Source: Ascidia mentula
Taxonomy: Eukaryota > Chordata > Ascidiacea > Phlebobranchia > Ascidiidae
Length of the DNA stretch: 64,000 nucleotides
Assembly (NCBI GenBank): GCA_947561715.1
Contig: OX387201.1
Span: 7,334,001 to 7,398,000 of the forward strand
Direction: 5' to 3'
Shown: positions 18,796 through 61,674 of the stretch, in pieces
How positions within the stretch are numbered: the first letter of the stretch is position 1
How the letters are laid out: every line of letters begins with the position of its first letter
Program-made: the position numbers and the translations under genes
Notes under the pieces: model-generated
Databases searched by the model: none
Told to the model about the DNA's origin: nothing
What the model saw: the letters and a program-made list of their open reading frames with translations, nothing else

Positions 18796-19436
18796 CCAAT
18801 GCATGAAATATTCTTCCGTACTTCGATCGAAAACGTACATTTTCATGACAAAACTTATGTTGCTTGAACTGTAACGTGAACATGAAAAAACATTGTAGAA
18901 GGTTACAAACCTCCATACACATTATTAGCATTAAAATATAGATTGTCGTTTACCCACAAAAACACGCATCATAGGCACACTCGTTTCTTTTTTTCCTTCA
19001 ACTCATTGTTGTGTTGTGCTGACAAAATTATACATATATGATGTCATGTCTGATATCTAACCTCATAAGGTTTGATAATCACTTTCCTGTCAAGAGTGTA
19101 GATTCTAATGGTCCTGTGGCACTTCATTGTTTAACTACAAACTCAATGACCCATCTTATCCATTTACGTTTGCTGCCATGATACATACGCTTATTTCTGG
19201 CTTTTTTTGGTGACTGGTCTTACGTCTTGGTAATCTAACCCAAGTGAAACCAAAGTATACCTTGCATACAAACGTTTCTGAGTAAAGATACATAAAATAT
19301 CGCCACATCTTTTGTTGTGTGAAATGGTTTGCCTTTGAGGCGTGTTAGAAGGCACCCTTATTGACTTATAGCAAACAAGCATCGCGATAAAAGGAAAAAA
19401 TTCTCAATGGCGCCTAGACCGGGAAAATTATCCTTA

Positions 19437-19812
19437 CCGTATTTACTCGATTGTAAGCCGCCCTCGATTGTAAGCCGCATGCGACGGTGTTCAAAAATTA
19501 ATATAAGCCGCCCTCGAATGTAAGCCGCACGTTGATGTTAAAGACAAACTTAGGTGCCCTACAACAATAATTGTCAACAAATCTGTCGTTTAAAATTGTC
19601 AGATACGCTGACAACCTTGGGCGATAAAACATACTGGTACGATGGAGCGAGTTGATGGTAAATTTCATTAAAAAACAGAGCGCAGACAAAATATCTGCGT
19701 GACAATAAATGATGTAAGCCACCCTCGAATATAAGCCGCCCTCGATCGTAAGCCGCACAAACGGTAGGTTAAAAAACTTTATAAGCCGCGGCTTACAATC
19801 GAGTAAATACGG
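19437..19812. mobile_element. Non-autonomous inverted-repeat element (MITE-like) with TAAGCCGC subrepeats
   Basis: The left end CCGTATTTACTCGATTGTAA and the inverted right end TTACAATCGAGTAAATACGG match exactly over at least 24 bases when extended with GCCG. Inside each end there are further copies of a TAAGCCGCCCTCGA-type motif (near 19456, 19475, 19504, 19523, 19714, 19733, 19750 and 19785). There is no transposase coding capacity in 376 bp. I could not see a confident target-site duplication and do not assign a superfamily. Confidence 0.7.
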
Positions 19813-21755: not shown

Positions 21756-24700
21756 TCAACGTCTGGCTGCGAGCGTTTCCTAAATAAAAAGCATATGTAA
21801 CTTCAAACATTTTTTCTAAAGCACATAGTGAGTTATATTTACCAATACGCTGGAAGGAACTTTGGCGCGCAAACGCCTTGACATGCCAAATAAGGCAAGG
21901 GCATTTGAGTTTTCAAAATTTACCTGCAAACAATGGTAACAGTTTAAAACCCTGTTTTTTTCATTAATGCAAGTTTTTGCAACTTACGCCGAAACCTGTT
22001 TCCAGAATCTCATGTTTATGCTTCTTTCGCTTCATTCTTCTCACACAAAGAAATGTAACGACGATAATTGCAACAGCACAAGCGGTACTTGCAAATACAA
22101 CAAACACCAGAAGCCAAGCTACAGTAAAAGAGGTGATAAGTGTCTATTCTTGGATGCCTACCTGAAAAGGATTCATTTGAATAAACTTACGACTATGACA
22201 GGTCGCGCCCTCAACTCCAAAAGAACAAGAACATACACCAACACCGTTGTTAGCTGTTGAGTCACACTTCCCAAAAGGATAATTGCAATGCATATCAACA
22301 GAACACAGAATGGCTAAAAACAAAAAGTTTTTCTTCCATAATCACGTTGCAAAACAAAGAAAAATCGGAAAATGAAGTTTTTAAAGACACATCTATTTAA
22401 AATTGCCATCGCTAGCCTATAGTTAGCTGCCAAGTGTTTTCTCATTAGTCATGTCACATAGTAAAATGGAGTCAATACACTATTTGTTAAAACTGAGTCA
22501 ACACTTCGGTGTACCTTGACACGTTCTATCGTTTTCAGGCAAAGGAAGATAGTCATTCATGCAGTTGCACTCGACCACGCCGTTGCTTGCATGGCATTGG
22601 GAGGTAACGTTGTCGCAATAAGACGATCCATCACCAGAATCGCAAATCACCGAACTTACCGCTATGGAAGAAAAATGTTACTGTGTATTTTATTTATTTG
22701 CCAAGCATGTATGCTTTCCATACTTCCAGCGTCTTGTACTGATTTCTCAGCGTCGACAGTAGATCCTCCAATCTCACATGTTCGGTTTGGACACTTAACA
22801 CAAACAAAAGAAAATTAAAATTAACGTTCAGAAAAATCGTACACGATTTTTTTCTATTTACCGATGTGTTAACATAAGAATCAAATATGCTCTGGACATC
22901 TGTTTCTGCGAAACCACTCGATGAGTCAAAATAAACTTCGTAGGACCAAACATCATTGCTGCCATCAAAATTGCTGTCAATGATATTTGTACCCAAATAC
23001 ATTGTAGAATTGTACGCCTGCGACAACTGAAAACGAAGAGAACAAACAATAAGGAATGGAAATTAACGCGCATATTTTCCCAAACAAAATACATAAGTAT
23101 GAACACTTGTGTTAAAAAGAGAGTTTTCCATGTAACTGAAAAAAGATAAATATTCTTTAGATTTTGTAGGTGATCAAAAAGAAAAGAATTAGAAACGAAA
23201 ACCAATCAAATGACGTACAAATACAGCAACGTCATTTCGAGTGTCACGACGCCGTCTGCGAGATGCAAGCACAACCAAATACAGTTTTCCACCAAAAACA
23301 GAAGCTGCAAATAAACAGTTTAAACAGCAATCAAACATGGCACGCAAGAATTACAAACCGAATAGACATTCCGAATTTGGTCCCATAAAAAATCCAGGGA
23401 TGCACGAACACTGAAAACCCGTAACTGTGTTTACACAATACGTGAGAGGATTGCTACAAGGATCAGAAAGAGAGTCGCAGTTACCAAAACCTAAACAAAG
23501 AGTGAATAAAAAACATGGTACAACAGTAAACACACAACACATGTGTCATTTAGCATTTTATGGGTGTTAATGCTATGTTTGTTATTGGCCACTACGGAGA
23601 CCTAAATTTAGCGATCACTGGGATCATAGGGTTGAATGGAAGAAATATTAGCAAATAGCACCGTTAGTGGCCAACACCTCTCCTCACCGCAATGCCAACG
23701 AACACCATACAGTACAACACTCAATCCAAGGATATGCAAAGTATATCAATATGGGTGAAGTGAAAACGCACCAGTAGAAGAAAAAATTGAGTTGCTTGTA
23801 GATTGGACATCAGTAACACTGACAGTGATAGTGGTCGAAACGCCTTTAGTGGTTACAGCAATTGTCGTAGGTTCGGCTTCTGTAGTTGCTTCTTCAGTTG
23901 CGATTGTCGTCGCAAAGCCTACAGAGGTTGCAGCAATTGTCGTAGGTTCGGCTTCTGTAGTTGCTTCTTCAGTTGCGATTGTCGTCGCAAAGCCTTCAGT
24001 GGTTGCAGCAATTGTCGTAGGTTCGGTTTCTGTAGTTGCTTCTTCAGTTGCGATTGTCGTCGCAAAGCCTTCAGTGGTTGCAGCAATTGTCGTAGGTTCG
24101 GCTTCTGTAGTTGCTTCTTCAGTTGCGATTGTCGTCGCAAAGCCTTCAGTGGTTGCAGCAATTGTCGTAGGTTCGGCTTCGGTAGTTGCTTCTTCAGTTG
24201 CGATTGTCGTCGCAAAGCCTTCAGTGGTTGCAGCAATTGTCGTAGGTTCGGCTTCGGTAGTTGCTTCTTCAGTTGCGATTGTCGTCGCAAAGCCTTCAGT
24301 GGTTGCAGCAATTGTCGTAGGTTCGGCTTCTGTAGTTGCTTCTTCAGTTGCAATTGTCGTCGCAAAGCCTTCAGTGATTGCAGCAATTGTCGTAGGTTCG
24401 GCTTCTGTAGTTGCTTCTTCAGTTGCGATTGTCGTCGCAAAGCCTTCAGTGGTTGCAGCAATTGTCGTAGGTTCGGCTTCGGTAGTTGCTTCTTCTGTTG
24501 CGATTGTCGTCGCAAAGCCTTCAGTGGTTGCAGCAATTGTCGTAGGTTCGGCTTCTGTAGTTGCTTCTTCAGTTGCGATTGTCGTCGCAAAGCCTTCAGT
24601 GGTTGCAGCAATTGTCGTAGGTTCGGCTTCTGTAGTTGCTTCTTCAGTTGCGATTGTCGTCGCAAAGCCTTCAGTGGTTGCAGCAATTGTCATAGGTTCG

Positions 24701-27700
24701 GCTTCTGTGGTTGCTTCTTCAGTGGCGATTGTCGTCGCAAAGCCTTCAGTTGTTGCAGCAATTGTCGTAGGTTCGGCTTCTGTAGTTGCTCCTTCAGTTG
24801 CGATTGTCGTCGCAAAGCCTTCAGTGGTTGCAGCAATTGTTGTAGGTTCGGCTTCTGTAGTTGCTCCTTCAGTTGCGATTGTCGTCGCAAAGCCTTCAGT
24901 GGTTGCAGCAATTGTCGTAGGTTCGGCTTCTGTAGCTGCTACTTCCGTTGCAATTGTCGTCGCAAAGCCTTCAGTGGTTGCAGCAATTGTCGTAGGTTCG
25001 GCTTCTGTAGTTGCTTCTTCAGTTGCGATTGTCGTCGCAAAGCCATCAGTTGTTGCAGCAATTGTCGTAGGTTCGGCTTCTGTAGTTGCTTCTTCAGTTG
25101 CAATTGTCGTCGCAAAACCTTCAGTGGTTGCAGCAATTGTCGTAGGTTCGGCTTCTGTAGTTGCTTCTTCAGTTGCGATTGTCGTCGCAAAGCCATCAGT
25201 TGTTGCAGCAATTGTCGTAGGTTCGGCTTCTGTAGTTGCTTCTTCAGTTGCAATTGTCGTCGCAAAGCCTTCAGTGGTTGCAGCAATTGTCGTAGGTTCG
25301 GCTTCTGTAGTTGCTTCTTCAGTTGCGATTGTCGTCGCAAAGCCTTCAGTGGTTGCAGCAATTGTCGTAGGTTCGGCTTCGGTAGTTGCTTCTTCAGTTG
25401 CGATTGTCGTCGCAAAGCCTTTAGTGGTTGCAGCAATTGTCGTAGGTTCGGCTTCTGTAGTTGCTTCTTCAGTTGCGATTGTCGTCGCAAAGCCTTCAGT
25501 GGTTGCAGCAATTGTCGTAGGTTCGGCTTCGGTAGTTGCTTCTTCTGTTGCGATTGTCGTCGCAAAGCCTTCAGTGGTTGCAGCAAATGTCGTAGGTTCG
25601 GCTTCTGTAGTTGCTTCTTCAGTTGCGATTGTCGTCGCAAAGCCATCAGTTGTTGCAGCAATTGTCGTAGGTTCGGCTTCTGTAGTTGCTCCTTCAGTTG
25701 CGATTGTCGTCGCAAAGCCATCAGTTGTTGCAGCAATTGTTGTAGTTTCGGCTTCTGTAGTTGCTTCTTCTGTTGCGATTGTCGTCGCAAAGCCTTCAGT
25801 GGTTGCAGCAATTGTCGTAGGTTCGGCTTCTGTAGTTGCTTCTTCAGTTGCGATTGTCGTCGCAAAGCCTTCAGTGGTTGCAGCAATTGTCGTAGGTTCG
25901 GCTTCTGTAGTTGCTTCTTCAGTTGCGATTGTCGTCGCAAAGCCATCAGTTTTTGCAGCAATTGTCGTAGGTTCGGCTTCTGTAGTTGCTCCTTCAGTTG
26001 CGATTGTCGTCGCAAAGCCATCAGTTGTTGCAGCAATTGTTGTAGGTTCGGCTTCTGTAGTTGCTCCTTCAGTTGCGATTGTCGTCGCGAAGCCTTCAGT
26101 GGTTGCAGCAATTGTCGTAGGTTCGGCTTCTGTAGTTGCTTCTTCTGTTGCCATTGTCGTCGCAAAGCCTTCAGTGGTTGCAGCAATTGTCGTAGGTTCG
26201 GCTTCTGTAGTTGCTTCTTCTGTTGCGATTGTCGTCGCAAAGCCTTCAGTGGTTGCAGCAATTGTCGTAGGTTCGGCTTCTGTAGTTGCTTCTTCTGTTG
26301 CCATTGTCGTCGCAAAGCCTTCAGTGGTTGCAGCAATTGTCGTAGGTTCGGCTTCTGTAGTTGCTTCTTCTGTTGCGATTGTCGTCGCAAAGCCTTCAGT
26401 GGTTGCAGCAATTGTCGTAGGTTCGGCTTCTGTAGTTGCTTCTTCTGTTGCAATTGTCGTCGCAAAGCCTTCAGTGGTTGCAGCAACTGTCGTAGGTTCG
26501 GCTTCTGTAGTTGCTTCTTCAGTTGCGATTGTCGTCGCAAAGCCTTCAGTGGTTGCAGCAATTGTCATAGGTTCGGCTTCTGTAGTTGCTTCTTCAGTGG
26601 CGATTGTCGTCGCAAAGCCTTCAGTGGTTGCAGCAAATGTAGTAGGTTCGGCTTCTGTAGTTGCTTCTTCAGTTGCGATTGTCGTCGCAAAGCCTTCAGT
26701 GGTTGCAGCAATTGTCGTTGGTTCTGCTTCTGTAGTTGCTTCTTCCATTGCGATTGTCGTCGCAAAGCCTTCAGTGGTTGCAGCAATAGTCGTAGGTTCG
26801 GCTTCTGTAGTTGCTTCTTCAGTTGCGATTGTGGTCGCAAAGCCATCAGTTGTTGCAGCAATTGTCGTAGGTTCGGCTTCTGTAGTTGCTCCTTCAGTTG
26901 CGATTGTCGTCGCAAAGCCTTTAGTGGTTGCAGCAATTGTCGTAGGTTCGGCTTCTGTAGTTGCTTCTTCTGTTGCCATTGTCGTCGCAAAGCCTTCAGT
27001 GGTTGCAGCAATTGTCGTAGGTTCGGCTTCTGTAGTTGCTTCTTCTGTTGCGATTATCGTCGCAAAGCCTTCAGTGGTTGCAGCAATTGTCGTAGGTTCG
27101 GCTTCTGTAGTTGCTTCTTCTGTTGCAATTGTCGTCGCAAAGCCTTCAGTGGTTGCAGCAACTGTCGTAGGTTCGGCTTCTGTAGTTGCTTCTTCAGTTG
27201 CGATTGTCGTCGCAAAGCCTTCAGTGGTTGCAGCAATTGTCATAGGTTCGGCTTCTGTGGTTGCTTCTTCAGTGGCGATTGTCGTCGCAAAGCCTTCAGT
27301 GGTTGCAGCAAATGTAGTAGGTTCGGCTTCTGTAGTTGCTTCTTCAGTTGCGATTGTCGTCGCAAAGCCTTCAGTGGTTGCAGAAATTGTCGTTGGTTCG
27401 GCTTCTGTAGTTGCTTCTTCTGTTGCGATTGTCGTCGCAAAGCCTTCAGTGGTTGCAGCAATTGTCGTAGGTTCGGCTTCTGTAGTTGCTTCTTCAGTTG
27501 CGATTGTCGTCGCAAAGCCTTCAGTGGTTGCAGCAATTGTCGTAGGTTCGGCTTCCGTAGTTGCTTCTTCAGTTGCGATTGTCGTCGCAAAGCCATCAGT
27601 TGTTGCAGCAATTGTCGTAGGTTCGGCTTCTGTAGTTGCTCCTTCAGTTGCGATTGTCGTCGCAAAGCCTTCAGTGGTTGCAGCAATTGTTGTAGGTTCG

Positions 27701-30700
27701 GCTTCTGTAGTTGCTCCTTCAGTTGCGATTGTCGTCGCAAAGCCTTCAGTGGTTGCAGCAATTGTCGTAGGTTCGCCTTCTGTAGCTGCAACTTCCGTTG
27801 CAATTGTCGTCGCAAAGCCTTCAGTGGTTGCAGCAATTGTCGTAGGTTCGGCTTCTGTAGTTGCTTCTTCAGTTGCGATTGTCGTCGCAAAGCCATCAGT
27901 TGTTGCAGCAATTGTCGTAGGTTCGGCTTCTGTAGTTGCTTCTTCAGTTGCAATTGTCGTCGCAAAACCTTCAGTGGTTGCAGCAATTGTCGTAGGTTCG
28001 GCTTCTGTAGTTGCTTCTTCAGTTGCGATTGTCGTCGCAAAGCCATCAGTTGTTGCAGCAATTGTCGTAGGTTCGGCTTCTGTAGTTGCTTCTTCAGTTG
28101 CAATTGTCGTCGCAAAGCCTTCAGTGGTTGCAGCAATTGTCGTAGGTTCGGCTTCTGTAGTTGCTTCTTCAGTTGCGATTGTCGTCGCAAAGCCTTCAGA
28201 GGTTGCAGCAATTGTTGTAGGTTCGGCTTCTGTAGTTGCTCCTTCAGTTGCGATTGTCGTCGCGAAGCCTTCAGTGGTTGCAGCAATTGTCGTAGGTTCG
28301 GCTTCTGTAGTTGCTACTTCTGTTGCAATTGTCGTCGCAAAGCCTTCAGTGGTTGCAGCAATTGTCGTAGGTTCGGCTTCTGTAGTTGCTTCTTCAGTTG
28401 CGATTGTCGTCGCAAAGCCATCAGTTGTTGCAGCAATTGTCGTAGGTTCGGCTTCTGTAGTTGCTCCTTCAGTTGCGATTGTCGTCGCAAAGCCTTCAGT
28501 GGTTGCAGCAATTGTCGTAGGTTCGGCTTCTGTAGTTGCTTCTTCAGTTGCGATTGTCGTCGCAAAGCCATCAGTTGTTGCAGCAATTGTCGTAGGTTCG
28601 GCTTGTGTAGTTGCTTCTTCAGTTGCGATTGTCGTCGCAAAGCCATCAGTTGTTGCAGCAATTGTCGTAGGTTCGGCTTCTGTAGTTGCTACTTCTGTTG
28701 CAATTGTCGTCGCAAAGCCTTCAGTGGTTGCAGCAATTGTCGTAGGTTGGGCTTCTGTAGTTGCTTCTTCAGTTGCGATTGTCGTCGCAAAGCCTTCAGT
28801 GGTTGCAGCAATTGTTGTAGGTTCGGCTTCTGTAGTTGCTTCTTCAGTTGCGATTGTCGTCGCAAAGCCATCAGTTGTTGCAGCAATTGTCGTAGGTTCG
28901 GCTTCTGTAGTTGCTTCTTCAGTTGCGATTGTCGTCGCAAAGCCTTCAGTGGTTGCAGCAATTGTCGTAGGTTCGGCTTCTGTAGTTGCTATTTCTGTTG
29001 CAATTGTCGTCGCAAAGCCTTCAGTGGTTGCAGCAATTGTCGTAGGTTCGGCTTCTCTAGTTGCTACTTCTGCTGCAATTGTCGTCGCAAAGCCTTCAGT
29101 GGTTGCAGCAATTGTCGTAGGTTCGGCTTCTGTAGTAGCTTCTTCAGTTGCGATTGTCGTCGCAAAGCCTTCAGTGGTTGCAGCAATTGTCGTAGGTTCG
29201 GCTTCTGTAGTTGCTTCTTCAGTTGCGATTGTCGTCGCAAAGCCTTCAGTGGTTGCAGCAATTGTCGTAGGTTCGGCTTCTGTAGTTGCTTCTTCAGTTG
29301 CGATTGTCGTCCCAAAGCCTTCAGTGGTTGCAGCAATTGTCGTAGGTTCGGCTTCTGTAGTTGCTTCTTCAGTTGCGATTGTCGTCGCAAAGCCATCAGT
29401 TGTTGCAACAATTGTCGTAGGTTCGGCTTCTGTAGTTGCTTCTTCAGTTGCGATTGTCGTCGCAAAGCCTTCAGTGGTTGCAGCAATTGTCGTAGGTTCG
29501 GCTTCTGTAGTTGCTTCTTCAGTTGCGATTGTCGTCGCAAAGCCATCAGTTGTTGCAGCAATTGTCGTAGGTTCGGCTTCTGTAGTTGCTTCTTCAGTTG
29601 CGATTGTCGTCGCAAAGCCTTCAGTGGTTGCAGCAATTGTCGTAGGTTCGGCTTCTGTAGTTGCTTCTTCAGTTGCAATTGTCGTCGCAAAGCCTTCAGT
29701 GGTTGCAGAAATTGTCGTAGGTTCGGCTTCTGTAGTTGCTTCTTCAGTTGCGATTGTCGTCGCAAAGCCTTCAGTGGTTGCAGCAATTGTCGTAGGTTCG
29801 GCTTCTGTAGTTGCTTCTTCAGTTGCAATTGTCGTCGCAAAGCCTTCAGTGGTTGCAGCAATTGTCGTAGGTTCGGCTTCTGTAGTTGCTTCTTCAGTTG
29901 CGATTGTCGTCGCAAAGCCATCAGTTGTGGCAGCAATTGTCGTAGGTTCGGCTTCTGTAGTTGCTCCTTCAGTTGCGATTGTCGTCGCAAAGCCTTCAGT
30001 GGTTGCAGCAATTGTCGTAGGTTCGGCTTCTGTAGTTGCTTCTTCAGTTGCAATTGTCGTCGCAAAGCCTTCAGTGGTTGCAGCAATTGTCGTAGGTTCG
30101 GCTTCTGTAGTTGCTTCTTCAGTTGCGATTGTCGTCGCAAAGCCATCAGTTGTTGCAGCAATTGTCGTAGGTTCGGCTTCTGTAGTTGCTTCTTCAGTTG
30201 CGATTGTCGTCGCAAAGCCTTCAGTGGTTGCAGCAATTGTCGTAGGTTCGGCTTCTGTAGTTGCTTCTTCAGTTGCGATTGTCGTCGCAAAGCCTTCAGT
30301 GGTTGCAGCAATTGTCGTAGGTTCGGCTTCGGTAGTTGCTTCTTCTGTTGCGATTGTCGTCGCAAAGCCTTCAGTGGTTGCAGCAATTGTCGTAGGTTCG
30401 GCTTCTGTAGTTGCTTCTTCAGTTGCGATTGTCGTCGCAAAGCCTTCAGTGGTTGCAGCAAATTTCGTAGGTTCGGCTTCTGTAGTTGCTTCTTCAGTTG
30501 CGATTGTCGTCGCAAAGCCTTCAGTGGTTGCAGCAATTGTCGTAGATTCGGCGTCGGTAGTTGCTTCTTCTGTTGCGATTGTCGTCGCAAAACCTTCAGT
30601 GGTTGCAGCAAATGTCGTAGGTTCGGCTTCTGTAATTGCTTCTTCAGTTGCGATTGTCGTCGCAAAGCCTTCAGTGGTTGCAGCAATTGTCGTAGTTTCG

Positions 30701-33700
30701 GCGTCGGTAGTTGCTTCTTCTGTTGCGATTGTCGTCGCAAAGCCTTCAGTGGTTGCAGCAATTGTCGTAGGTTCGGCTTCTGTAGTTGCTTCTTCAGTTG
30801 CGATTGTCGTCGCAAAACCTTCAGTGGTTGCAGCAAATGTCGTAGGTTCGGCTTCTGTAATTGCTTCCTCAGTTGCGATTGTCGTCGCAAAGCCTTCAGT
30901 GGTTGCAGCAATTGTCGTAGGTTCGGCGTCGGTAGTTGCTTCTTCTGTTGCGATTGTCGTCGCAAAACCTTCAGTGGTTGCAGCAAATGTCGTAGGTTCG
31001 GCTTCTGTAATTGCTTCTTCAGTTGCGATTGTCGTCGCAAAGCCTTCAGTGGTTGCAGCAATTGTCGTAGTTTCGGCGTCGGTAGTTGCTTCTTCTGTTG
31101 CGATTGTCGTCGCAAAGCCTTCAGTGGTTGCAGCAATTGTCGTAGGTTCGGCTTCTGTAGTTGCTTCTTCAGTTGCGATTGTCGTCGCAAAGCCTTCAGT
31201 GGTTGCAGCAATTGTCGTAGTTTCGGCGTCGGTAGTTGCTTCTTCTGTTGCGATTGTCGTCGCAAAACCTTCAGTGGTTGCAGCAAATGTCGTAGGTTCG
31301 GCTTCTGTAGTTGCTTCTTCAGTTGCGATTGTCGTCGCAAAGCCTTCAGTGGTTGCAGCAATTGTCGTAGGTTCGGCTTCGGTAGTTGCTTCTTCTGTTG
31401 CGATTGTCGTCGCAAAGCCTTCAGTGGTTGCAGCAATTGTCGTAGGTTCGGCTTCTGTAGTTGCTTTTTCAGTTGCGATTGTCGTCGCAAAGCCTTCAGT
31501 GGTTGCAGCAAATTTCGTAGGTTCGGCTTCTGTAGTTGCTTCTTCAGTTGCGATTGTCGTCGCAAAGCCTTCAGTGGTTGCAGCAATTGTCGTAGTTTCG
31601 GCGTCGGTAGTTGCTTCTTCTGTTGCGATTGTCGTCGCAAAACCTTCAGTGGTTGCAGCAAATGTCGTAGGTTCGGCATCTGTAGTTGCTTCTTCAGTTG
31701 CGATTGTCGTCGCAAAGCCTTCAGTGGTTGCAGCAATTGTCGTAGTTTCGGCGTCGGTAGTTGCTTCTTCTGTTGCGATTGTCGTCGCAAAGCCTTCAGT
31801 GGTTGCAGCAATTGTCGTAGGTTCGGCTTCTGTAGTTGCTTCTTCAGTTGCGATTGTCGTCGCAAAGCCATCAGTTGTTGCAGCAATTGTCGTAGGTTCG
31901 GCTTCTGTAGTTGCTCCTTCAGTTGCGATTGTCGTCGCAAAGCCATCAGTTGTTGCAGCAATTGTTGTAGGTTCGACTTCTGTGGTTGCTCCTTCAGTTG
32001 CGATTGTCGTCGCGAAGCCTTCAGTGGTTGCAGCAATTGTCGTAGGTTCGGCTTCTGTAGTTGCTACTTCTGTTGCAATTGTCGTCGCAAAGCCTTCAGT
32101 GGTTGCAGCAATTGTCGTAGGTTCGGCTTCTCTAGTTGCTACTTCTGTTGCAATTGTCGTCGCAAAGCCTTCAGTGGTTGCAGCAATTGTCGTAGGTTCG
32201 GCTTCTGTAGTAGCTTCTTCAGTTGCGATTGTCGTCGCAAAGCCATCAGTTGTTGCAGCAATTGTCGTAGGTACGACTTCTGTGGTTGCTCCTTCAGTTG
32301 CGATTGTCGTCGCGAAGCCTTCAGTGGTTGCAGCAATTGTCGTAGGTTCGGCTTCTGTAATTGCTACTTCTGTTGCAATTGTCGTCGCAAAGCCTTCAGT
32401 GGTTGCAGCAATTGTCGTAGGTTCGGCTTCTCTAGTTGCTACTTCTGTTGCAATTGTCGTCGCAAAGCCTTCAGTGGTTGCAGCAATTGTCGTAGGTTCG
32501 GCTTCTGTAGTTGCTTCTTCAGTTGCGATTGTCGTCGCAAAGCCATCAGTTGTTGCAGCAATTGTCGTAGGTTCGGCTTCTGTAGTTGCTTCTTCAGTTG
32601 CGATTGTCGTCGCAAAGCCTTCAGTGGTTGCAGCAATTGTCGTAGGTTCGGCTTCTGTAGTTGCTTCTTCAGTTGCAATTGTCGTCGCAAAGCCTTCAGT
32701 GGTTGCAGCAATTGTCGTAGGTTCGGCTTCTGTAGTTGCTTCTTCAGTTGCGATTGTCGTCGCAAAGCCTTCAGTGGTTGCAGCAATTGTCGTAGGTTCG
32801 GCTTCTGTAGTTGCTTCTTCAGTTGCAATTGTCGTCGCAAAGCCTTCAGTGGTTGCAGCAATTGTCGTAGGTTCGGCTTCTGTAGTTGCTTCTTCAGTTG
32901 CGATTGTCGTCGCAAAGCCATCAGTTGTGGCAGCAATTGTAGTAGGTTCGGCTTCTGTAGTTGCTCCTTCAGTTGCGATTGTCGTCGCAAAGCCTTCAGT
33001 GGTTGCAGCAATTGTCGTAGGTTCGGCTTCTGTAGTTGCTTCTTCAGTTGCAATTGTCGTCGCAAAGCCTTCAGTGGTTGCAGCAATTGTCGTAGGTTCG
33101 GCTTCTGTAGTTGCTTCTTCAGTTGCGATTGTCGTCGCAAAGCCATCAGTTGTTGCAGCAATTGTCGTAGGTTCGGCTTCTGTAGTTGCTTCTTCAGTTG
33201 CGATTGTCGTCGCAAAGCCTTCAGTGGTTGCAGCAATTGTCGTAGGTTCGGCTTCTGTAGTTGCTTCTTCAGTTGCGATTGTCGTCGCAAAGCCTTCAGT
33301 GGTTGCAGCAATTGTCGTAGGTTCGGCTTCGGTAGTTGCTTCTTCTGTTGCGATTGTCGTCGCAAAGCCTTCAGTGGTTGCAGCAATTGTCGTAGGTTCG
33401 GCTTCTGTAGTTGCTTCTTCAGTTGCGATTGTCGTCGCAAAGCCTTCAGTGGTTGCAGCAAATTTCGTAGGTTCGGCTTCTGTAGTTGCTTCTTCAGTTG
33501 CGATTGTCGTCGCAAAGCCTTCAGTGGTTGCAGCAATTGTCGTAGTTTCGGTGTCGGTAGTTGCTTCTTCTGTTGCGATTGTCGTCGCAAAACCTTCAGT
33601 GGTTGCAGCAAATGTCGTAGGTTCGGCTTCTGTAATTGCTTCTTCAGTTGCGATTGTCGTCGCAAAGCCTTCAGTGGTTGCAGCAATTGTCGTAGTTTCG

Positions 33701-51700: not shown

Positions 51701-54700
51701 GCTTCTGTAGTTGCTTCTTCAGTTGCGATTGTCGTCGCAAAGCCATCAGTGGTTGCAGCAATTGTCGTAGGTTCGGCTTCTGTAGTTGCTCCTTCAGTTG
51801 CGATTGTCGTCGCAAAGCCTTCAGTGGTTGCAGCAATTGTCGTAGGTTCGGCTTCTGTAGTTGCTCCTTCAGTTGCGATTGTCGTCGCAAAGCCATCAGT
51901 GGTTGCAGCAATTGTCGTAGGTTCGGCTTCTGTAGTTGCTTCTTCAGTTGCAATTGTCGTCGCAAAGCCTTCAGTGGTTGCAGCAATTGTCGTAGGTTCG
52001 GCTTCTGTAGTTGCTTCTTCAGTTGCGATTGTCGTCGCAAAGCCTTCAGTGGTTGCAGCAATTGTCGTAGGTTCGGCTTCGGTAGTTGCTTCTTCTGTTG
52101 CGATTGTCGTCGCAAAGCCATCAGTTGTTGCAGCAATTGTCGTAGGTTCGGCTTCTGTAGTTGCTTCTTCAGTTGCAATTGTCGTCGCAAAGCCTTCAGT
52201 GGTTGCAGCAATTGTCGTAGGTTCGGCTTCTGTAGTTGCTTCTTCAGTTGCGATTGTCGTCGCAAAGCCTTGAGTGGTTGCAGCAATTGTCGTAGGTTCG
52301 GCTTCTGTAGTTGCTTCTTCAGTTGCGATTGTCGTCGCAAAGCCATCAGTTGTTGCAGCAATTGTCGTAGGTTCGGCTTCTGTAGTTGCTCCTTCAGTTG
52401 CGATTGTCGTCGCAAAGCCATCAGTTGTTGCAGCAATTGTCGTAGGTTCGGCTTCTGTAGTTGCTTCTTCAGTTGCGATTGTCGTCGCAAAGCCTTCAGT
52501 GGTTGCAGCAATTGTCGTAGGTTCGGCTTCGGTAGTTGCTTCTTCTGTTGCGATTGTCGTCGCAAAGCCTTCAGTGGTTGCAGCAAATGTCGTAGGTTCG
52601 GCTTCTGTAGTTGCTTCTTCAGTTGCGATTGTCGTCGCAAAGCCTTCAGTGGTTGCTGCAATTGTTGTAGGTTCGGCTTCTGTAGTTGCTTCTTCAGTTG
52701 CGATTGTCGTCGCAAAGCCATCAGTTGTTGCAGCAATTGTCGGAGGTTCGGCTTCTGTAGTTGCTCCTTCAGTTGCGATTGTCGTCGCAAAGCCATCACT
52801 TGTTGCAGCAATTGTCGTAGGTTCGGCTTCTGTAGTTGCTCCTTCAGTTGCGATTGTCGTCGCGAAGCCTTCAGTGGTTGCAGCAATTGTCGTAGGTTCG
52901 GCTTCTGTAGTTGCTTCTTCTGTTGCGATTGTCGTCGCAAAGCTTTCAGTGGTTGCAGCAATTGTCGTAGGTTCGGCTTCTGTAGTTGCTCCTTCAGTTG
53001 CAATGGTCGTCGCAAAGCCTTCAGTGGTTGCAGCAATTGTCGTATGTTCGGCTTCTGTAGTTGCTTCTTCTGTTGCCATTGTCGTCGCAAAGCCTTCAGT
53101 GGTTGCAGCAATTGTCGTAGGTTCGGCTTCTGTAGTTGCTTCTTCAGTTGCGATTGTCGTCGCAAAGCCATCAGTTGTTGCAGCAATTGTCGTAGGTTCG
53201 GCTTCTGTAGTTGCTCCTTCAGTTGCGATTGTCGTCGCGAAGCCTTTAGTGGTTGCAGCAATTATCGTAGGTTCGGCTTCTGTAGTTGCTTCTTCAGTTG
53301 CGATTGTCGTCGCAAAGCCTTCAGTGGTTGCAGCAATAGTCGTAGGTTCGGCTTCTGTAGTTGCTTCTTCAGTTGCGATTGTCGTCGCAAAGCCATCAGT
53401 TGTTGCAGCAATTATCGTAGGTTCGGCTTCTGTAGTTGCTTCTTCAGTTGCGATTGTCGTCGCAAAGCCTTCAGTGGTTGCAGCAATAGTCGTAGGTTCG
53501 GCTTCTGTGGTTGCTTCTTCAGTGGCGATTGTCGTCGCAAAGCCTTCAGTGGTTGCAGCAAATGTCGTAGGTTCGGCTTCTGTAGTTGCTTCTTCAGTTG
53601 CGATTGTCGTCGCAAAGCCATCAGTTGTTGCAGCAATTATCGTAGGTTCGGCTTCTGTAGTTGCTTCTTCAGTTGCGATTGTCGTCGCAAAGCCTTCAGT
53701 GGTTGCAGCAGCTGTCGTAGGTTCGGCTTCTGTGGTTGCTTCTTCAGTGGCGATTGTCGTCGCAAAGCCTTCAGTGGTTGCAGCAAATGTCGTAGGTTCG
53801 GCTTCTGTAGTTGCTTCTTCAGTTGCGATTGTCGTCGCAAAGCCTTCAGTGGTTGCAGCAATTGTCGTAAGTTCGGCTTCGGTAGTTGCTTCTTCAGTTG
53901 CGATTGTCGTCGCAAAGCCTTCAGTGGTTGCAGCAATTGTCGTAGGTTCGGCTTCGGTAGTTGCTTCTTCAGTTGCGATTGTCGTCGCAAAGCCTTCAGT
54001 GGTTGCAGCAATTGTCGTAGGTTCGGCTTCGGTAGTTGCTTCTTCAGTTGCGATTGTCGTCGCAAAGCCTTCAGTGGTTGCAGCAATTGTCGTAGGTTCG
54101 GCTTCGGTAGTTGCTTCTTCTGTTGCGATTGTCGTCGCAAAGCCTTCAGTGGTTGCAGCAATTGTCGTAGGTTCGGCTTCGGTAGTTGCTTCTTCTGTTG
54201 CGATTGTCGTCGCAAAGCCTTCAGTGGTTGCAGCAATTGTCGTCGGTTCGGCTTCTGTAGTTGCTTCTTCTGTTGCGATTGTCGTCGCAAAGCCTTCAGT
54301 GGTTGCAGCAAATGTCGTAGGTTCGGCTTCTGTAGTTGCTTCTTCAGTTGCGATTGTCGTCGCAAAGCCATCAGTGGTTGCAGCAATTGTCGTAGGTTCG
54401 GCTTCTGTAGTTGCTCCTTCAGTTGCGATTGTCGTCGCAAAGCCTTCAGTGGTTGCAGCAATTGTCGTAGGTTCGGCTTCTGTAGTTGCTCCTTCAGTTG
54501 CGATTGTCGTCGCAAAGCCATCAGTGGTTGCAGCAATTGTCGTAGGTTCGGCTTCTGTAGTTGCTTCTTCAGTTGCAATTGTCGTCGCAAAGCCTTCAGT
54601 GGTTGCAGCAATTGTCGTAGGTTCGGCTTCTGTAGTTGCTTCTTCAGTTGCGATTGTCGTCGCAAAGCCTTCAGTGGTTGCAGCAATTGTCGTAGGTTCG

Positions 54701-57700
54701 GCTTCGGTAGTTGCTTCTTCTGTTGCGATTGTCGTCGCAAAGCCATCAGTTGTTGCAGCAATTGTCGTAGGTTCGGCTTCTGTAGTTGCTTCTTCAGTTG
54801 CAATTGTCGTCGCAAAGCCTTCAGTGGTTGCAGCAATTGTCGTAGGTTCGGCTTCTGTAGTTGCTTCTTCAGTTGCGATTGTCGTCGCAAAGCCTTGAGT
54901 GGTTGCAGCAATTGTCGTAGGTTCGGCTTCTGTAGTTGCTTCTTCAGTTGCGATTGTCGTCGCAAAGCCATCAGTTGTTGCAGCAATTGTCGTAGGTTCG
55001 GCTTCTGTAGTTGCTCCTTCAGTTGCGATTGTCGTCGCAAAGCCATCAGTTGTTGCAGCAATTGTCGTAGGTTCGGCTTCTGTAGTTGCTTCTTCAGTTG
55101 CGATTGTCGTCGCAAAGCCTTCAGTGGTTGCAGCAATTGTCGTAGGTTCGGCTTCGGTAGTTGCTTCTTCTGTTGCGATTGTCGTCGCAAAGCCTTCAGT
55201 GGTTGCAGCAAATGTCGTAGGTTCGGCTTCTGTAGTTGCTTCTTCAGTTGCGATTGTCGTCGCAAAGCCTTCAGTGGTTGCTGCAATTGTCGTAGGTTCG
55301 GCTTCTGTAGTTGCTTCTTCAGTTGCGATTGTCGTCGCAAAGCCATCAGTTGTTGCAGCAATTGTCGGAGGTTCGGCTTCTGTAGTTGCTCCTTCAGTTG
55401 CGATTGTCGTCGCAAAGCCATCACTTGTTGCAGCAATTGTCGTAGGTTCGGCTTCTGTAGTTGCTCCTTCAGTTGCGATTGTCGTCGCGAAGCCTTCAGT
55501 GGTTGCAGCAATTGTCGTAGGTTCGGCTTCTGTAGTTGCTTCTTCTGTTGCGATTGTCGTCGCAAAGCTTTCAGTGGTTGCAGCAATTGTCGTAGGTTCG
55601 GCTTCTGTAGTTGCTCCTTCAGTTGCAATGGTCGTCGCAAAGCCTTCAGTGGTTGCAGCAATTGTCGTATGTTCGGCTTCTGTAGTTGCTTCTTCTGTTG
55701 CCATTGTCGTCGCAAAGCCTTCAGTGGTTGCAGCAATTGTCGTAGGTTCGGCTTCTGTAGTTGCTTCTTCAGTTGCGATTGTCGTCGCAAAGCCATCAGT
55801 TGTTGCAGCAATTGTCGTAGGTTCGGCTTCTGTAGTTGCTCCTTCAGTTGCGATTGTCGTCGCGAAGCCTTTAGTGGTTGCAGCAATTATCGTAGGTTCG
55901 GCTTCTGTAGTTGCTTCTTCAGTTGCGATTGTCGTCGCAAAGCCTTCAGTGGTTGCAGCAATAGTCGTAGGTTCGGCTTCTGTAGTTGCTTCTTCAGTTG
56001 CGATTGTCGTCGCAAAGCCATCAGTTGTTGCAGCAATTATCGTAGGTTCGGCTTCTGTAGTTGCTTCTTCAGTTGCGATTGTCGTCGCAAAGCCTTCAGT
56101 GGTTGCAGCAATAGTCGTAGGTTCGGCTTCTGTAGTTGCTTCTTCAGTTGCGATTGTCGTCGCGAAGCCTTCAGTGGTTGCAGCAATTATCGTAGGTTCG
56201 GCTTCTGTAGTTGCTTCTTCAGTTGCGATTGTCGTCGCAAAGCCTTCAGTGGTTGCAGCAATAGTCGTAGGTTCGGCTTCTGTAGTTGCTTCTTCAGTTG
56301 CGATTGTCGTCGCAAAGCCATCAGTTGTTGCAGCAATTGTCGTAGGTTCGGCTTCTGTAGTTGCTTCTTCAGTTGCGATTGTCGTCGCAAAGCCTTCAGT
56401 GGTTGCAGCAATTGTCGTAGGTTCGGCTTCTGTAGTTGCTTCTTCAGTTGCGATTGTCGTCGCAAAGCCTTCAGTGGTTGCAGCAATTGTCGTAGGTTCG
56501 GCTTCTGTAGTTGCTTCTTCTGTTGCCATTGTCGTCGCAAAGCCTTCAGTGGTTGCAGCAATTGTCGTAGGTTCGGCTTCTGTAGTTGCTTCTTCTGTTG
56601 CGATTGTCGTCGCAAAGCCTTCAGTGGTTGCAGAAATTGTCGTAGGTTCGGCTTCTGTAGTTGCTTCTTCTGTTGCAATTGTCGTCGCAAAGCCTTCAGT
56701 GGTTGCAGCAACTGTCGTAGGTTCGGCTTCTGTAGTTGCTTCTTCAGTTGCGATTGTCGTCGCAAAGCCTTCAGTGGTTGCAGCAATTGTCGTAGGTTCG
56801 GCTTCTGTAGTTGCGATTGTCGTCGCAAAGCCTTCAGTGGTTGCAGCAATTGTCGTAGGTTCGGCTTCTGTAGTTGCTTCTTCAGTGGCGATTTTCGTCG
56901 CAAAGCCTTCAGTGGTTGCAGCAAATGTCGTAGGTTCGGCTTCTGTAGTTGCGATTGTCGTCGCAAAGCCTTCAGTGGTTGCAGCAATTGTCGTTGGTTG
57001 GGCTTCTGTAGTTGCTTCTTCTGTTGCGATTGTCGTCGCAAAGCCTTCAGTGGTTGCAGCAATTGTCGTAGGTTCGGCTTCTGTAGTTGCTTCTTCTGTT
57101 GCAATTGTCGTCGCAAAGCCTTCAGTGGTTGCAGCAATTGTCGTAGGTTCGGCTTCTGTAGTTGCTACTTCTGTTGCAATTGTCGTCGCAAAGCCTTCAG
57201 TGGTTGCAGCAAATGTCGTAGGTTTGGCTTCTGTAGTTGCTACTTCTGTTGCAATTGTCGTCGCAAAGCCTTCAGTGGTTGCAGCAATTGTCGTAGGTTC
57301 GGCTTCTGTAGTTGCTTCTTCAGTTGCGATTGTCGTCGCAAAGCCTTCATTGGTTGCAGCAATTGTCGTAGGTTCGGCTTCTGTAGTTGCTTCTTCAGTT
57401 GCGATTGTCGTCGCAAAGCCTTCAGTGGTTGCAGCAATTGTCGTAGGTTCGACTTCTGTAGTTGCTTCTTCAGTTGCGATTGTCGTCGCAAAGCCTTCAG
57501 TGGTTGCAGCAAATGTCATAGGTTCGGCTTCTGTAGTTGCTTCTTCAGTTGCGATTGTCGTCCCAAAGCCTTCAGTGGTTGCAGCAATTGTCGTAGGTTC
57601 GGCTTCTGTAGTTGCTTCTTCAGTTGCGATTGTCGTCGCAAAGCCATCAGTTGTTGCAGCAATTGTCGTAGGTTCGGCTTCTGTATTGGCTTCTTCAGTT

Positions 57701-60700
57701 GCGATTGTCGTCGCAAAGCTTTCAGTGGTTGCAGCAATTGTCGTTGGTTCGGCTTCTGTAGTTGCTTCTTCAGTTGCGATTGTCGTCGCAAACCCTTCAG
57801 TGGTTGCAGCAATTGTCGTAGGTTCGGCTTCTGTAGTTGCTTCTTCAGTTGCGATTGTCGTCGCAAAGCCTTCAGTGGTTGCAGCAATTGTCGTAGGTTC
57901 GGCTTCTGTAGTTGCTTCTTCAGTTGCGATTGTCGTCGCAAAGCCTTCAGTGGTTGCAGCAATAGTCGTAGGTTCGGCTTCTGTAGTTGCTTCTTCAGTT
58001 GCGATTGTCGTCGCAAAGCCTTCAGTTGTTGCAGCAATTGTCGGAGGTTCGGCTTCTGTAGTTGCTCCTTCAGTTGCGATTGTCGTCGCAAAGCCATCAC
58101 TTGTTGCAGCAATTGTCGTAGGTTCGGCTTCTGTAGTTGCTCCTTCAGTTGCGATTGTCGTCGCGAAGCCTTCAGTGGTTGCAGCAATTGTCGTAGGTTC
58201 GGCTTCTGTAGTTGCTTCTTCTGTTGCGATTGTCGTCGCAAAGCTTTCAGTGGTTGCAGCAATTGTCGTAGGTTCGGCTTCTGTAGTTGCTCCTTCAGTT
58301 GCAATGGTCGTCGCAAAGCCTTCAGTGGTTGCAGCAATTGTCGTATGTTCGGCTTCTGTAGTTGCTTCTTCTGTTGCCATTGTCGTCGCAAAGCCTTCAG
58401 TGGTTGCAGCAATTGTCGTAGGTTCGGCTTCTGTAGTTGCTTCTTCAGTTGCGATTGTCGTCGCAAAGCCATCAGTTGTTGCAGCAATTGTCGTAGGTTC
58501 GGCTTCTGTAATTGCTCCTTCAGTTGCGATTGTCGTCGCGAAGCCTTCAGTGGTTGCAGCAATTATCGTAGGTTCGGCTTCTGTAGTTGCTTCTTCAGTT
58601 GCGATTGTCGTCGCAAAGCCTTCAGTGGTTGCAGCAATAGTCGTAGGTTCGGCTTCTGTAGTTGCTTCTTCAGTTGCGATTGTCGTCGCAAAGCCATCAG
58701 TTGTTGCAGCAATTATCGTAGGTTCGGCTTCTGTAGTTGCTTCTTCAGTTGCGATTGTCGTCGCAAAGCCTTCAGTGGTTGCAGCAATAGTCGTAGGTTC
58801 GGCTTCTGTAGTTGCTTCTTCAGTTGCGATTGTCGTCGCGAAGCCTTCAGTGGTTGCAGCAATTATCGTAGGTTCGGCTTCTGTAGTTGCTTCTTCAGTT
58901 GCGATTGTCGTCGCAAAGCCTTCAGTGGTTGCAGCAATAGTCGTAGGTTCGGCTTCTGTAGTTGCTTCTTCAGTTGCGATTGTCGTCGCAAAGCCATCAG
59001 TTGTTGCAGCAATTGTCGTAGGTTCGGCTTCTGTAGTTGCTTCTTCAGTTGCGATTGTCGTCGCGAAGCCTTCAGTGGTTGCAGAAATTGTCGTAGGTTC
59101 GGCTTCTGTAGTTGCTTCTTCTGTTGCAATTGTCGTCGCAAAGCCTTCAGTGGTTGCAGCAACTGTCGTAGGTTCGGCTTCTGTAGTTGCTTCTTCAGTT
59201 GCGATTGTCGTCGCAAAGCCTTCAGTGGTTGCAGCAATTGTCGTAGGTTCGGCTTCTGTAGTTGCGATTGTCGTCGCAAAGCCTTCAGTGGTTGCAGCAA
59301 TTGTCGTAGGTTCGGCTTCTGTAGTTGCTTCTTCAGTGGCGATTGTCGTCGCAAAGCCTTCAGTGGTTGCAGCAAATGTCGTAGGTTCGGCTTCTGTAGT
59401 TGCGATTGTCGTCGCAAAGCCTTCAGTGGTTGCAGCAATTGTCGTTGGTTGGGCTTCTGTAGTTGCTTCTTCTTTTGCGATTGTCGTCGCAAAGCCTTCA
59501 GTGGTTGCAGCAATTGTCGTAGGTTCGGCTTCTGTAGTTGCTTCTTCTGTTGCAATTGTCGTCGCAAAGCCTTCAGTGGTTGCAGCAATTGTCGTAGGTT
59601 CGGCTTCTGTAGTTGCTACTTCTGTTGCAATTGTCGTCGCAAAGCCTTCAGTGGTTGCAGCAATTGTCGTAGGTTTGGCTTCTGTAGTTGCTACTTCTGT
59701 TGCAATTGTCGTCGCAAAGCCTTCAGTGGTTGCAGCAATTGTCGTAGGTTCGGCTTCTGTAGTTGCTTCTTCAGTTGCGATTGTCGTCGCAAAGCCTTCA
59801 TTGGTTGCAGCAATTGTCGTAGGTTCGGCTTCTGTAGTTGCTTCTTCAGTTGCGATTGTCGTCGCAAAGCCTTCAGTGGTTGCAGCAATTGTCGTAGGTT
59901 CGACTTCTGTAGTTGCTTCTTCAGTTGCGATTGTCGTCGCAAAGCCTTCAGTGGTTGCAGCAAATGTCATAGGTTCGGCTTCTGTAGTTGCTTCTTCAGT
60001 TGCGATTGTCGTCCCAAAGCCTTCAGTGGTTGCAGCAATTGTCGTAGGTTCGGCTTCTGTAGTTGCTTCTTCAGTTGCGATTGTCGTCGCAAAGCCATCA
60101 GTTGTTGCAGCAATTGTCGTAGGTTCGGCTTCTGTATTGGCTTCTTCAGTTGCGATTGTCGTCGCAAAGCTTTCAGTGGTTGCAGCAATTGTCGTAGGTT
60201 CGGCTTCTGTAGTTGCTTCTTCAGTTGCGATTGTCGTCGCAAAGCCATCAGTTGTTGCAGCAATTGTCGTAGGTTCGGCTTCTGTAGTTGCTTCTTCAGT
60301 TGCGATTGTCGTCGCAAACCCTTCAGTGGTTGCAGCAATTGTCGTAGGTTCGGCTTCTGTAGTTGCTTCTTCAGTTGCGATTGTCGTCGCAAAGCCTTCA
60401 GTGGTTGCAGCAATTGTCGTAGGTTCGGCTTCTGTAGTTGCTTCTTCAGTTGCGATTGTCGTCGCAAAGCCATCAGTTGTTGCAGCAATAGTCGTAGGTT
60501 CGGCTTCTGTAGTTGCTTCTTCAGTTGCGATTGTCGTCGCAAAGCCATCAGTTGTTGCAGCAATAGTCGTAGGTTCGGCTTCTGTAGTTGCTTCTTCAGT
60601 TGCGATTGTCGTCGCAAAGCCTTCAGTGGTTGCAGCAATAGTCGTAGGTTCGGCTTCGGTAGTTGCTTCTTCAGTTGCGATTGTCGTCGCAAAGCCATCA

Positions 60701-61674
60701 GTTGTTGCAGCAATAGTCGTAGGTTCGGCTTCTGTAGTTGCTTCTTCAGTTGCGATTGTCGTCGCAAAGCCTTCAGTGGTTGCAGCAATTGTCGTAGGTT
60801 CGGCTTCGGTAGTTGCTTCTTCTGTTGCGATTGTCGTCGCAAAGCCTTCAGTTGTTGCAGCAATTGTCGTAGGTTCGGCTTCTGTAGTTGCTTCTTCTGT
60901 TGCGATTGTCGTCGCAAAGCCTTCAGTGGTTGCAGCAATAGTCGTAGGTTCGGCTTCGGTAGTTGCTTCTTCAGTTGCGATTGTCGTCGCAAAGCCTTCA
61001 GTGGTTGCAGCAATAGTCGTAGGTTCGGCTTCTGTAGTTGCTTCTTCAGTTGCGATTGTCGTCGCAAAGCCTTCAGTGGTTGCAGCAATTGTCGTAGGTT
61101 CGGCTTCGGTAGTTGCTTCTTCTGTTGCGATTGTCGTCGCAAAGCCTTCAGTGGTTGCAGTAATTGTCGTATGTTCGGATTCTGTAGTTGCTTCTTCTGT
61201 TGCAATTGTCGTCGCAAAGCCTTCAGTGATTGCAGCAATTGTCGTAGATTCGGCTTCTGTAGTTGCTTCTTCTGTTGCGATTGTGGTCGCAAAGCCTTCA
61301 GTGGTTGCAGGCTCATTTGCAATGGTTGTATCTCCGGCTTCTGTAGTTGCATCTTCTGTTGCTGCAACTGATCGCTTTAACTCTTCGTTTTGTTTGATAT
61401 TGAGATGTGTTGTTGTCTTTGTCGCAGCTATCTGTAATATTCCGTGGTATGATTCAATCTCCCTTGTCTTGTTTTCGTCAGTTGTGATATGTGTCGCACT
61501 TTTTGTTTCCGCTTTTGTCAACTTTAAAGGTTTTGCATGTTGATCGGTTGGAATTTTTTTGATGTTGTCCGCAATTTCTGCAGCGACTTGTCTGTTGGAT
61601 GGCAACAGTTTTGGTTTTCCTTCTGCGAAGTCGCTTATTAAGGTGGTCGCAATTAACAAAACTATGACATTCAT
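21756..61674 (-). CDS. Mucin gene C: giant transmembrane mucin (12926 aa) with a 37.9-kb repeat exon
   Basis: Nine exons: 61674-23772, 23490-23359, 23304-23219, 23026-22862, 22793-22724, 22661-22515, 22313-22191, 22118-21988 and 21779-21756. They total 38781 bp, divisible by three. I chose the ATG at 61674 because MNVIVLLIATTLISDFAEGK is a signal peptide; the frame runs upstream to 61926 but would bury it. Residues 21-102 are a unique Lys-rich linker, about 103-12620 the 25-residue repeat, and 12638-12677 EGF1. The SEA-like module is about 12680-12788 (SVFGGKLYL, VWSYEVYF) with RRRRR at 12694-12698. EGF2 (YCDNVTSQC), EGF3, a membrane span from W12877 and RRMKRKKHKH follow, then a short tail ending ETLAARR. 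Exon phases match B throughout, and the 147- and 123-bp EGF exons are the same length. The donors GTGCGT (23771) and GTTTGT (23358) are not ideal. The final exon rests on a TTTATTTAG acceptor and similarity to gene A (ET at the same phase), and is the least certain part. The backbone mass is about 1.3 MDa before glycans (estimate). Confidence 0.82.
23246..23260 (-). other. RRRRR site in the SEA-like exon of gene C (possible proprotein convertase site)
   Basis: LASRRRRRDTRND follows FGGKLYL, at the same place as RRRR in gene B. It fits a furin-like R-x-(R/K)-R site. It lies between the giant repeat plus EGF1 and the membrane-side EGF modules, so cleavage would separate the glycosylated part from the anchor. 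This is inference from motif and position only. Confidence 0.38.
24691..27290 (-). repeat. Higher-order repeat, offset 2550 bp (34 units)
   Basis: The rare unit CATAGGTTCGGCTTCTGTGG followed by an AGTGGCGATT variant occurs at 24691 and again at 27241. The spacing is exactly 34 units. Neighbouring units also share GGCGATT and GTTGTAGGTT variants, so the copies are a duplicated block with later changes. Confidence 0.6.
29580..35400 (-). repeat. Higher-order repeat, two blocks offset by 3000 bp (40 units)
   Basis: Rare variants recur at an exact 3000-bp offset: AATTTCGTAG at 30461 and 33461, TCAGTTGTGGCAGC near 29930 and 32930, and TCTAGTTGCT at 32131 and 35131. The block from about 29580 to 32400 therefore repeats at about 32580-35400. 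Scattered single-base differences (for example GCGTCGG against GTGTCGG near 30550 and 33550) show it is old enough to have diverged slightly. Confidence 0.75.
44041..46290 (-). repeat. Tandem higher-order repeat, 1125 bp (15 units) x 2
   Basis: The rare changes CATAGGTTCG (44041, 45166), GTAGTTTCTTC (44208, 45333), AAAGACTTCAG and GTAGTTGCTTCCTC recur at exactly 1125 bp. The two blocks look nearly identical, so this is likely a recent duplication. Confidence 0.8.
51081..59100 (-). repeat. Higher-order repeat, about 2.6 kb, two exact-period blocks and a third altered one
   Basis: CAGCAGCTGT recurs at 51081 and 53706. The rare AGCCTTGAGT recurs at 52266 and 54891, and CGGAGGTTCG at 52741 and 55366. 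All are offset by 2625 bp, or 35 units. A third CGGAGGTTCG lies at 58042, 2676 bp on, which equals 36 units less two 12-base deletions. Three head-to-tail blocks are therefore visible, the third rearranged. Confidence 0.8.
57241..59963 (-). repeat. Higher-order repeat, offset 2451 bp, carrying 63-bp short units
   Basis: The GTTCGACTTCTG variant at 57448 recurs at 59899, and the GTATTGGCTTC, CCCAAAGCC and AAACCCTTCAG variants follow at nearly the same offset. 2451 equals 33 units of 75 less two 12-base deletions, matching the two 63-bp units inside each copy. Confidence 0.75.

Follow-up and report, generated by a model that had tools for sequence, protein, structure and literature searches.

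The window analysed here is a stretch of 64,000 nucleotides from the ascidian Ascidia mentula (contig OX387201.1, positions 7,334,001 to 7,398,000, most likely on chromosome 5). In this genome, mitochondrial COX1 contains 18 AGR codons, many of them at positions of conserved Gly, in line with the tunicate genetic code. It carries on its minus strand three of five tandem paralogous genes, which we call A, B and C; the other two, D and E, lie just to the right of the window. Our subject is gene C and, in particular, its first coding exon, which holds a long array of 75-bp repeat units. By exon 1 we mean this first coding exon; a 5' untranslated exon or a spliced leader is possible upstream of it. 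The features of gene C, in window positions, are as follows.

23772..61674, minus: exon 1, 37,903 bp, 12,634 codons, ending in phase 1
61618..61674, minus: signal-peptide-like start MNVIVLLIATTLISDFAEG, by eye
61351..61617, minus: unique N-terminal segment; a KR dibasic site (by eye) lies 7 residues ahead of the array
23857..61350, minus: repeat array, 496 units of 75 bp, four of 63 bp and one 42-bp partial unit
23770..23771, minus: donor GT closing the array exon (ACTG followed by GTGCGT)
23359..23490, minus: exon 2, EGF-like domain 1 (EGF_CA, E 0.0013, under the cut-off)
23219..23304, minus: exon 3, start of the SEA-like region, by paralogue alignment
23246..23260, minus: RRRRR furin-type motif near the start of the SEA-like region, putative site
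22862..23026, minus: exon 4, SEA-like region, by paralogue alignment
22724..22793, minus: exon 5, end of the SEA-like region, by paralogue alignment
22515..22661, minus: exon 6, EGF-like domain 2, by Cys pattern
22191..22313, minus: exon 7, EGF-like domain 3, by Cys pattern
21988..22118, minus: exon 8, transmembrane helix (by eye, with a basic flank) and start of the cytoplasmic tail

Exon structure and domains of gene C

The original prediction had described a single exon of 37.9 kb, about 12,634 codons without a stop and about 500 repeat units, open from ATG to splice donor. This description holds: exon 1 starts with ATG and reads through 12,634 codons and one further base with 0 in-frame stops, inside a stop-to-stop frame of 12,726 codons (23746-61926). 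Moreover, the exon closes with a usable donor and joins in phase to tail exons whose conservation is seen in the paralogues. Two in-frame ATGs lie 5' of that at 61674 (61878 and 61764); by eye, a signal-peptide-like sequence comes after the ATG at 61674 alone, and a candidate acceptor, TTTGACAG, lies 28 bp 5' of this ATG. The signal-peptide-like stretch and the unique segment together make up 108 codons. The array then begins with the partial unit of 14 amino acids and comprises 496 units of 25 amino acids, with the consensus ATTEGFATTIATEEATTEAEPTTIA, and four of 21 amino acids; the changes in unit length all keep the frame. In agreement with this segmentation, Tandem Repeats Finder gave a period of 75, 500.4 copies, 95% matches and 0% indels. 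The exon 1 product contains 35.5% Thr, 0.4% Ser and 3.8% Pro, with 2,393 acidic versus 41 basic residues, and its unmodified mass is approximately 1,266 kDa.

Exons 2-8 (132, 86, 165, 70, 147, 123 and 131 bp) join in phase and without a stop over seven introns of 281, 54, 192, 68, 62, 201 and 72 bp. We chose the tail exon borders by eye from GT-AG and phase, with the paralogues as guide, so that exon structure was read from the sequence and membrane topology is predicted. The model extends to exon 8 and includes the cytoplasmic tail only in part. Downstream of exon 8, two identical 28-base stretches lie 60 bp apart on the minus strand (21301-21328 and 21361-21388).

For the EGF-like domains, Pfam EGF_CA matched genes C (E 0.0013), B (E 0.00052) and A (E 0.02), in each case under the curated cut-off and with the best stretch in EGF 1. 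A profile of the tails of A, B and C found Notch EGF chains in PDB, with a best E of 8.7e-5, also on EGF 1; EGF 2 and EGF 3 are assigned from the conserved Cys pattern in a five-way alignment. Pfam SEA (PF01390) matched in gene E only (E 0.0034, 17.9 bits, cut-off 26.4). GSVVV is a SEA self-cleavage motif, and the pattern G[ST]V[VI] of this type was present in 0 of the five paralogue tails; uncleaved SEA domains exist, and the absence of the motif alone does not exclude a SEA domain. The furin-type motif is present in B, C and E and not in A and D.

Homogenisation and selection in the repeat array

The gene C array is homogenised: 172 of its 496 full units are distinct, and the mean pairwise nucleotide identity is 0.951. 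Strong higher-order repeats were considered and rejected, as only weak periods were seen, at offsets of 35, 40, 2 and 34 units, where 6.9-9.5% of the units are identical versus 2.7% at random. The unit corresponds to that of gene B minus 9 bp and with five substitutions. In the genome searched (195.84 Mb in 79 contigs, including C69, which carries the window), an exact 14-mer of the unit had 412 matches, 411 on one strand and 1 on the other. Inside the window lie 409 of them, 338 in exon 1 of gene C and 71 in exon 1 of gene B; outside it, among the matches listed, one is on contig C52 and two are on the same strand as those of the window. This locality, the unit variants and the B-like unit fit with growth of the array by unequal exchange of a B-like unit, which we infer to have followed tandem gene duplication.

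The length of the exon is not due to chance. The original prediction had taken the missing stops to imply either purifying selection on the frame or very recent homogenisation. Over the array, stops number 0, 52 and 840 in the three sense frames and 3, 5 and 1,018 in the antisense ones; the unit consensus is stop-free in four of the six frames, and plus-strand frames are also open over 6,093 and 5,353 codons. From the one-step codon variants in the 496 units (36 synonymous and 64 non-synonymous), 1.1-3.0 distinct stop mutations would be expected in the sense frame, depending on transition/transversion weight and normalisation. With so few stops expected, and with no more than 3 and 5 in two of the antisense frames, zero stops is weak evidence of selection, and both the frame control and the expected-stop count led us to reject stop-free length as its proof. 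More generally, a stop-free frame in a homogenised array says little about selection unless the other frames are used as a control.

Variation among the units gives a similar picture. The synonymous share of variants is 0.36 versus 0.277-0.306 expected (p 0.04-0.14). The idea that synonymous variants reach a higher copy number was rejected, as synonymous and non-synonymous variants did not differ in copy number over the 496 units (p 0.21). Minor alleles number 171, 188 and 691 at the three codon positions, and the ratio of non-synonymous to synonymous diversity (piN/piS) is 0.34, or 0.40 among distinct units, values carried by few common variants; in the other arrays the ratio is 0.66 (B), 0.67 (A) and 0.94 (D). 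Thus, of the two processes proposed, homogenisation is well supported and purifying selection within the array weakly so, and the absence of stops does not by itself imply the latter.

Strong evidence for coding comes from the conserved in-phase tails of the five paralogues, from substitution in the tails and from the frame of gene D. Among the tails of A, B and C, the proportion of non-synonymous differences (pN) is 0.29-0.31 versus 0.71-0.78 for synonymous differences (pS), with pS near saturation. In gene D, the frame has 0 stops versus 525-1,056 in the other five frames, and in 70 of its units 3.5-5.1 distinct stops would be expected and none is present.

The sense array of gene C contains no GTRNGT, GTAAG, GTGAG, AATAAA or ATTAAA. 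This lack of splice and poly(A) signals is due to composition more than to selection, because recoded versions of the array protein also contain on average only 0-2.2 of each such signal. Similarly, the sense array contains 75 GT versus approximately 353 in versions recoded with uniform codons, and we do not attribute this to selection, since the depletion is mainly explained by one glycine codon that is fixed in the unit (GGC in 476 of 559). Short introns can be recognised by intron definition. With introns of 54-281 bp, intron definition should serve gene C, and exon definition is probably not strained, contrary to what had been proposed from the size of the exon.

A putative giant tethered mucin

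Gene C very probably encodes a giant single-pass tethered mucin that has its entire Thr-rich domain in one exon. That exon would carry the signal peptide and the whole Thr/Glu/Ala-rich repeat domain. Downstream, over seven short introns, the tail exons would add an EGF domain, a SEA-like region that includes a furin-type site, a further pair of EGF-like domains and, lastly, the transmembrane helix and cytoplasmic tail. Approximately 4,500 threonines would be expected to be O-glycosylated, giving a stiff, strongly acidic brush on the epithelial surface that, at the rise per residue we assume, might be microns long. The huge exon may have arisen through unequal exchange that multiplied an in-frame unit of 75 bp and homogenised the copies. 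Selection would maintain the reading frame, the density of Thr and the tail, and would presumably act far less on the sequence of the units or on their number. The cluster to which gene C belongs consists of five tandem paralogues with conserved tails and with arrays that differ in unit and length. Among the features of SEA-type mucins, gene C has one large repeat exon, a domain that is Thr/Ser/Pro-rich by way of Thr alone, and membrane-proximal EGF domains. We class it as a tethered EGF/SEA-like mucin and make no claim of orthology with one of the MUC genes.

Several observations weigh against this interpretation. Gene C is known here from genomic DNA alone, the exon borders were set by eye, and the exons of gene E were joined on the third try. 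The Ser (0.4%) and Pro (3.8%) contents of exon 1 are low for a classical proline-, threonine- and serine-rich domain. No EGF match reaches the Pfam cut-off, and the profile matches fall almost wholly on EGF 1; the SEA region of C had no Pfam match at all, those of A, B and D had none to Pfam SEA, and a five-way SEA profile had no match in PDB at E up to 10. Finally, selection within the array is weak in C and near neutral in D (piN/piS 0.94).

It is conceivable that the array is a non-coding, satellite-like sequence and that its open frame is a by-product of homogenising a stop-free 75-bp unit. Stop-free frames are cheap in such a sequence, as seen in the two antisense frames with 3 and 5 stops, and the weak selection within the array would also fit; however, satellite units are spread over many loci and the gene C unit is nearly confined to this one (409 of the 412 14-mer matches). 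Together with the signal-peptide-like start, the in-phase donor and acceptors, the five paralogues with the same tail and a tail pN well below pS, this makes a satellite-like origin of the frame extremely improbable. That the array is transcribed and then spliced out or shortened in the mRNA, by cryptic splicing or alternative starts, and is not translated whole, is very improbable: the sense array lacks the splice and poly(A) signals listed above, although this lack is mostly compositional and 75 GT remain.

A different possibility is that the gene is real and that the assembly has the wrong number of copies, by expansion or collapse, so that the exon is shorter or longer than 37.9 kb. According to the part of the genome report used here, the Ascidia mentula genome was sequenced with HiFi reads at 74-fold coverage from 12-20 kb fragments, with a quality value of 64.9 (PMC11109543). 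The gene C array exceeds this fragment size, and the neighbouring gene D contains a near-identical tandem copy of 8.94 kb. Reads of 12-20 kb cannot span the gene C array but can tile it by means of unit variants: besides the 172 distinct units, the longest exact repeats are 1,413 and 1,130 bp, at least 348 sites differ between 10-kb stretches compared without gaps at offsets divisible by 3, and 5-kb pieces, sampled every 1,250 bp, match off register at 97.7% identity at most with gaps allowed. Because of the short exact repeats, the limited off-register identity and the 74-fold HiFi coverage, inflation of the array by the assembly is unlikely, and we regard a wrong copy number of either kind as improbable; the length of gene D is more doubtful because of its tandem copy. 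A larger, still small, share of probability goes to the product being a secreted or shed structural glycoprotein, of the tunic, a glue or a mucus net, that is cut at RRRRR, instead of a standing membrane brush. The furin-type motif in B, C and E and the KR site before the gene C repeats would agree with this; the motif is, however, not found in A and D, and the hydrophobic helix is kept in the paralogues. Cleavage at RRRRR is also compatible with a membrane mucin if the cleaved subunits stay bound.

The membrane mucins are a known class, of which gene C seems to be a very large member. In MUC3A, MUC12 and MUC17, the domain order is EGF, SEA, EGF and transmembrane. Gene C differs from these in its unit, in being poor in Ser and Pro, in having three EGF-like domains and in having the putative signal peptide in the same exon as the repeats; moreover, the ascidian SEA region is weakly recognised and lacks G[ST]V[VI], and a furin-type site is present in three of the five genes. 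As stated in the portion of a 2026 preprint on which we rely, the canonical mucins all have a large exon with a variable number of tandem repeats (VNTR), and MUC3A, MUC12 and MUC17 cluster on chromosome 7 (PMC13345508); gene C is like these three in lying in a gene cluster and in having its repeat domain in one large VNTR exon. The same portion reports that human MUC12 alleles encode up to 23,080 amino acids and that, in some people, no single coding exon is larger than that of MUC12 (PMC13345508). This product is longer than that of the gene C or gene D exon, as compared by protein and not by exon length, and it supersedes MUC16, which the original prediction had used as the yardstick of size. 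MUC16 is, like gene C, a very large membrane mucin; it is reported to contain multiple SEA domains (PMC1552070), whereas gene C has one SEA-like region, and to have a VNTR more degenerate than the others compared (PMC13345508), whereas the gene C array is homogenised. The spider aggregate spidroin AgSp1, with a coding sequence of 42,270 bp in two similarly sized exons (PMC6553539), is likewise a giant repetitive extracellular protein gene; it differs from gene C in its two exons and in belonging to the silk family, and the part of that report used here mentions no membrane anchor.

Among the titles that searches of the open-access literature for ascidian or tunicate mucins listed, none concerned a gene of this kind. 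On the basis of a narrow search of that literature, it is possible, if doubtful, that, some human MUC12 alleles excepted, the neighbouring genes C (37.9 kb) and D (49.6 kb) of one ascidian mucin cluster have the two largest single coding exons. If true, tunicate and mammalian tethered mucins would have arrived at the same extreme of exon size, either through common ancestry of the tail or independently of each other; if reads and transcripts bear this out, exons of 40-50 kb would not be a human oddity and would be found again among the tethered mucins of a basal chordate.

The five-gene cluster

The paralogues of gene C are listed below, those of A and B in window positions and those of D and E in contig positions.

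4355..6098, minus: gene A exon 1, 1,744 bp, 7-amino-acid units, EGF 1 fused
2966..4296, minus: gene A tail exons, in phase, by paralogue alignment
10252..18205, minus: gene B exon 1, 7,954 bp, 28-amino-acid units related to those of gene C
8285..10097, minus: gene B tail exons, in phase, by paralogue alignment
C69:7408067-7457684, minus: gene D exon 1, 49,618 bp, 16,539 codons, no stop
C69:7469698-7473430, minus: gene E exon 1, 3,733 bp, TTEAMATTQELQS-type repeats

Exon 1 of gene D is larger than that of gene C, has repeat spacings of 106 and 240 amino acids, and contains the internal 8.94-kb tandem copy at approximately 99.9% identity. Genes B, C, D and E share the intron phases 1,1,0,0,1,1,1 and the same order of tail exons; gene A lacks intron 1, with EGF 1 inside exon 1, and its other phases are as in B-E. 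The tails of D and E consist of EGF, SEA-like, EGF and EGF exons, and exon 2 of D fits two donors. The five-way tail alignment has 43 invariant columns, 19 of which are Cys, and the hydrophobic helix is conserved; tail identity to gene C is 54% for B, 50% for A, 31% for D and 33% for E. Sharing one conserved tail and with arrays from less than 2 kb to approximately 50 kb, the five genes offer a natural series for comparing how arrays grow and homogenise and how constraint on the amino acids relaxes.

When the genome was searched with EGF 3 of gene B, nine places were found at E up to 1: A, B, C, two to the right on the same contig and four weak ones. A weak EGF 3 relative at C69:6684204-6684302 (E 0.0047) may be a distant sixth member; some 8 kb from it lies a Thr-rich frame of 320 codons (C69:6675567-6676526). 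Weak EGF matches also occur on contigs C73 and C1; there were no frames of at least 200 codons at two of the three places of EGF matches on C73, nor in two stretches around 6.44 Mb. Between genes B and C, a GCGGCTTACAATCGAG-like motif occurs at window positions 19430-19810 in several short copies, some direct and some inverted, which are perhaps the remnant of a mobile element.

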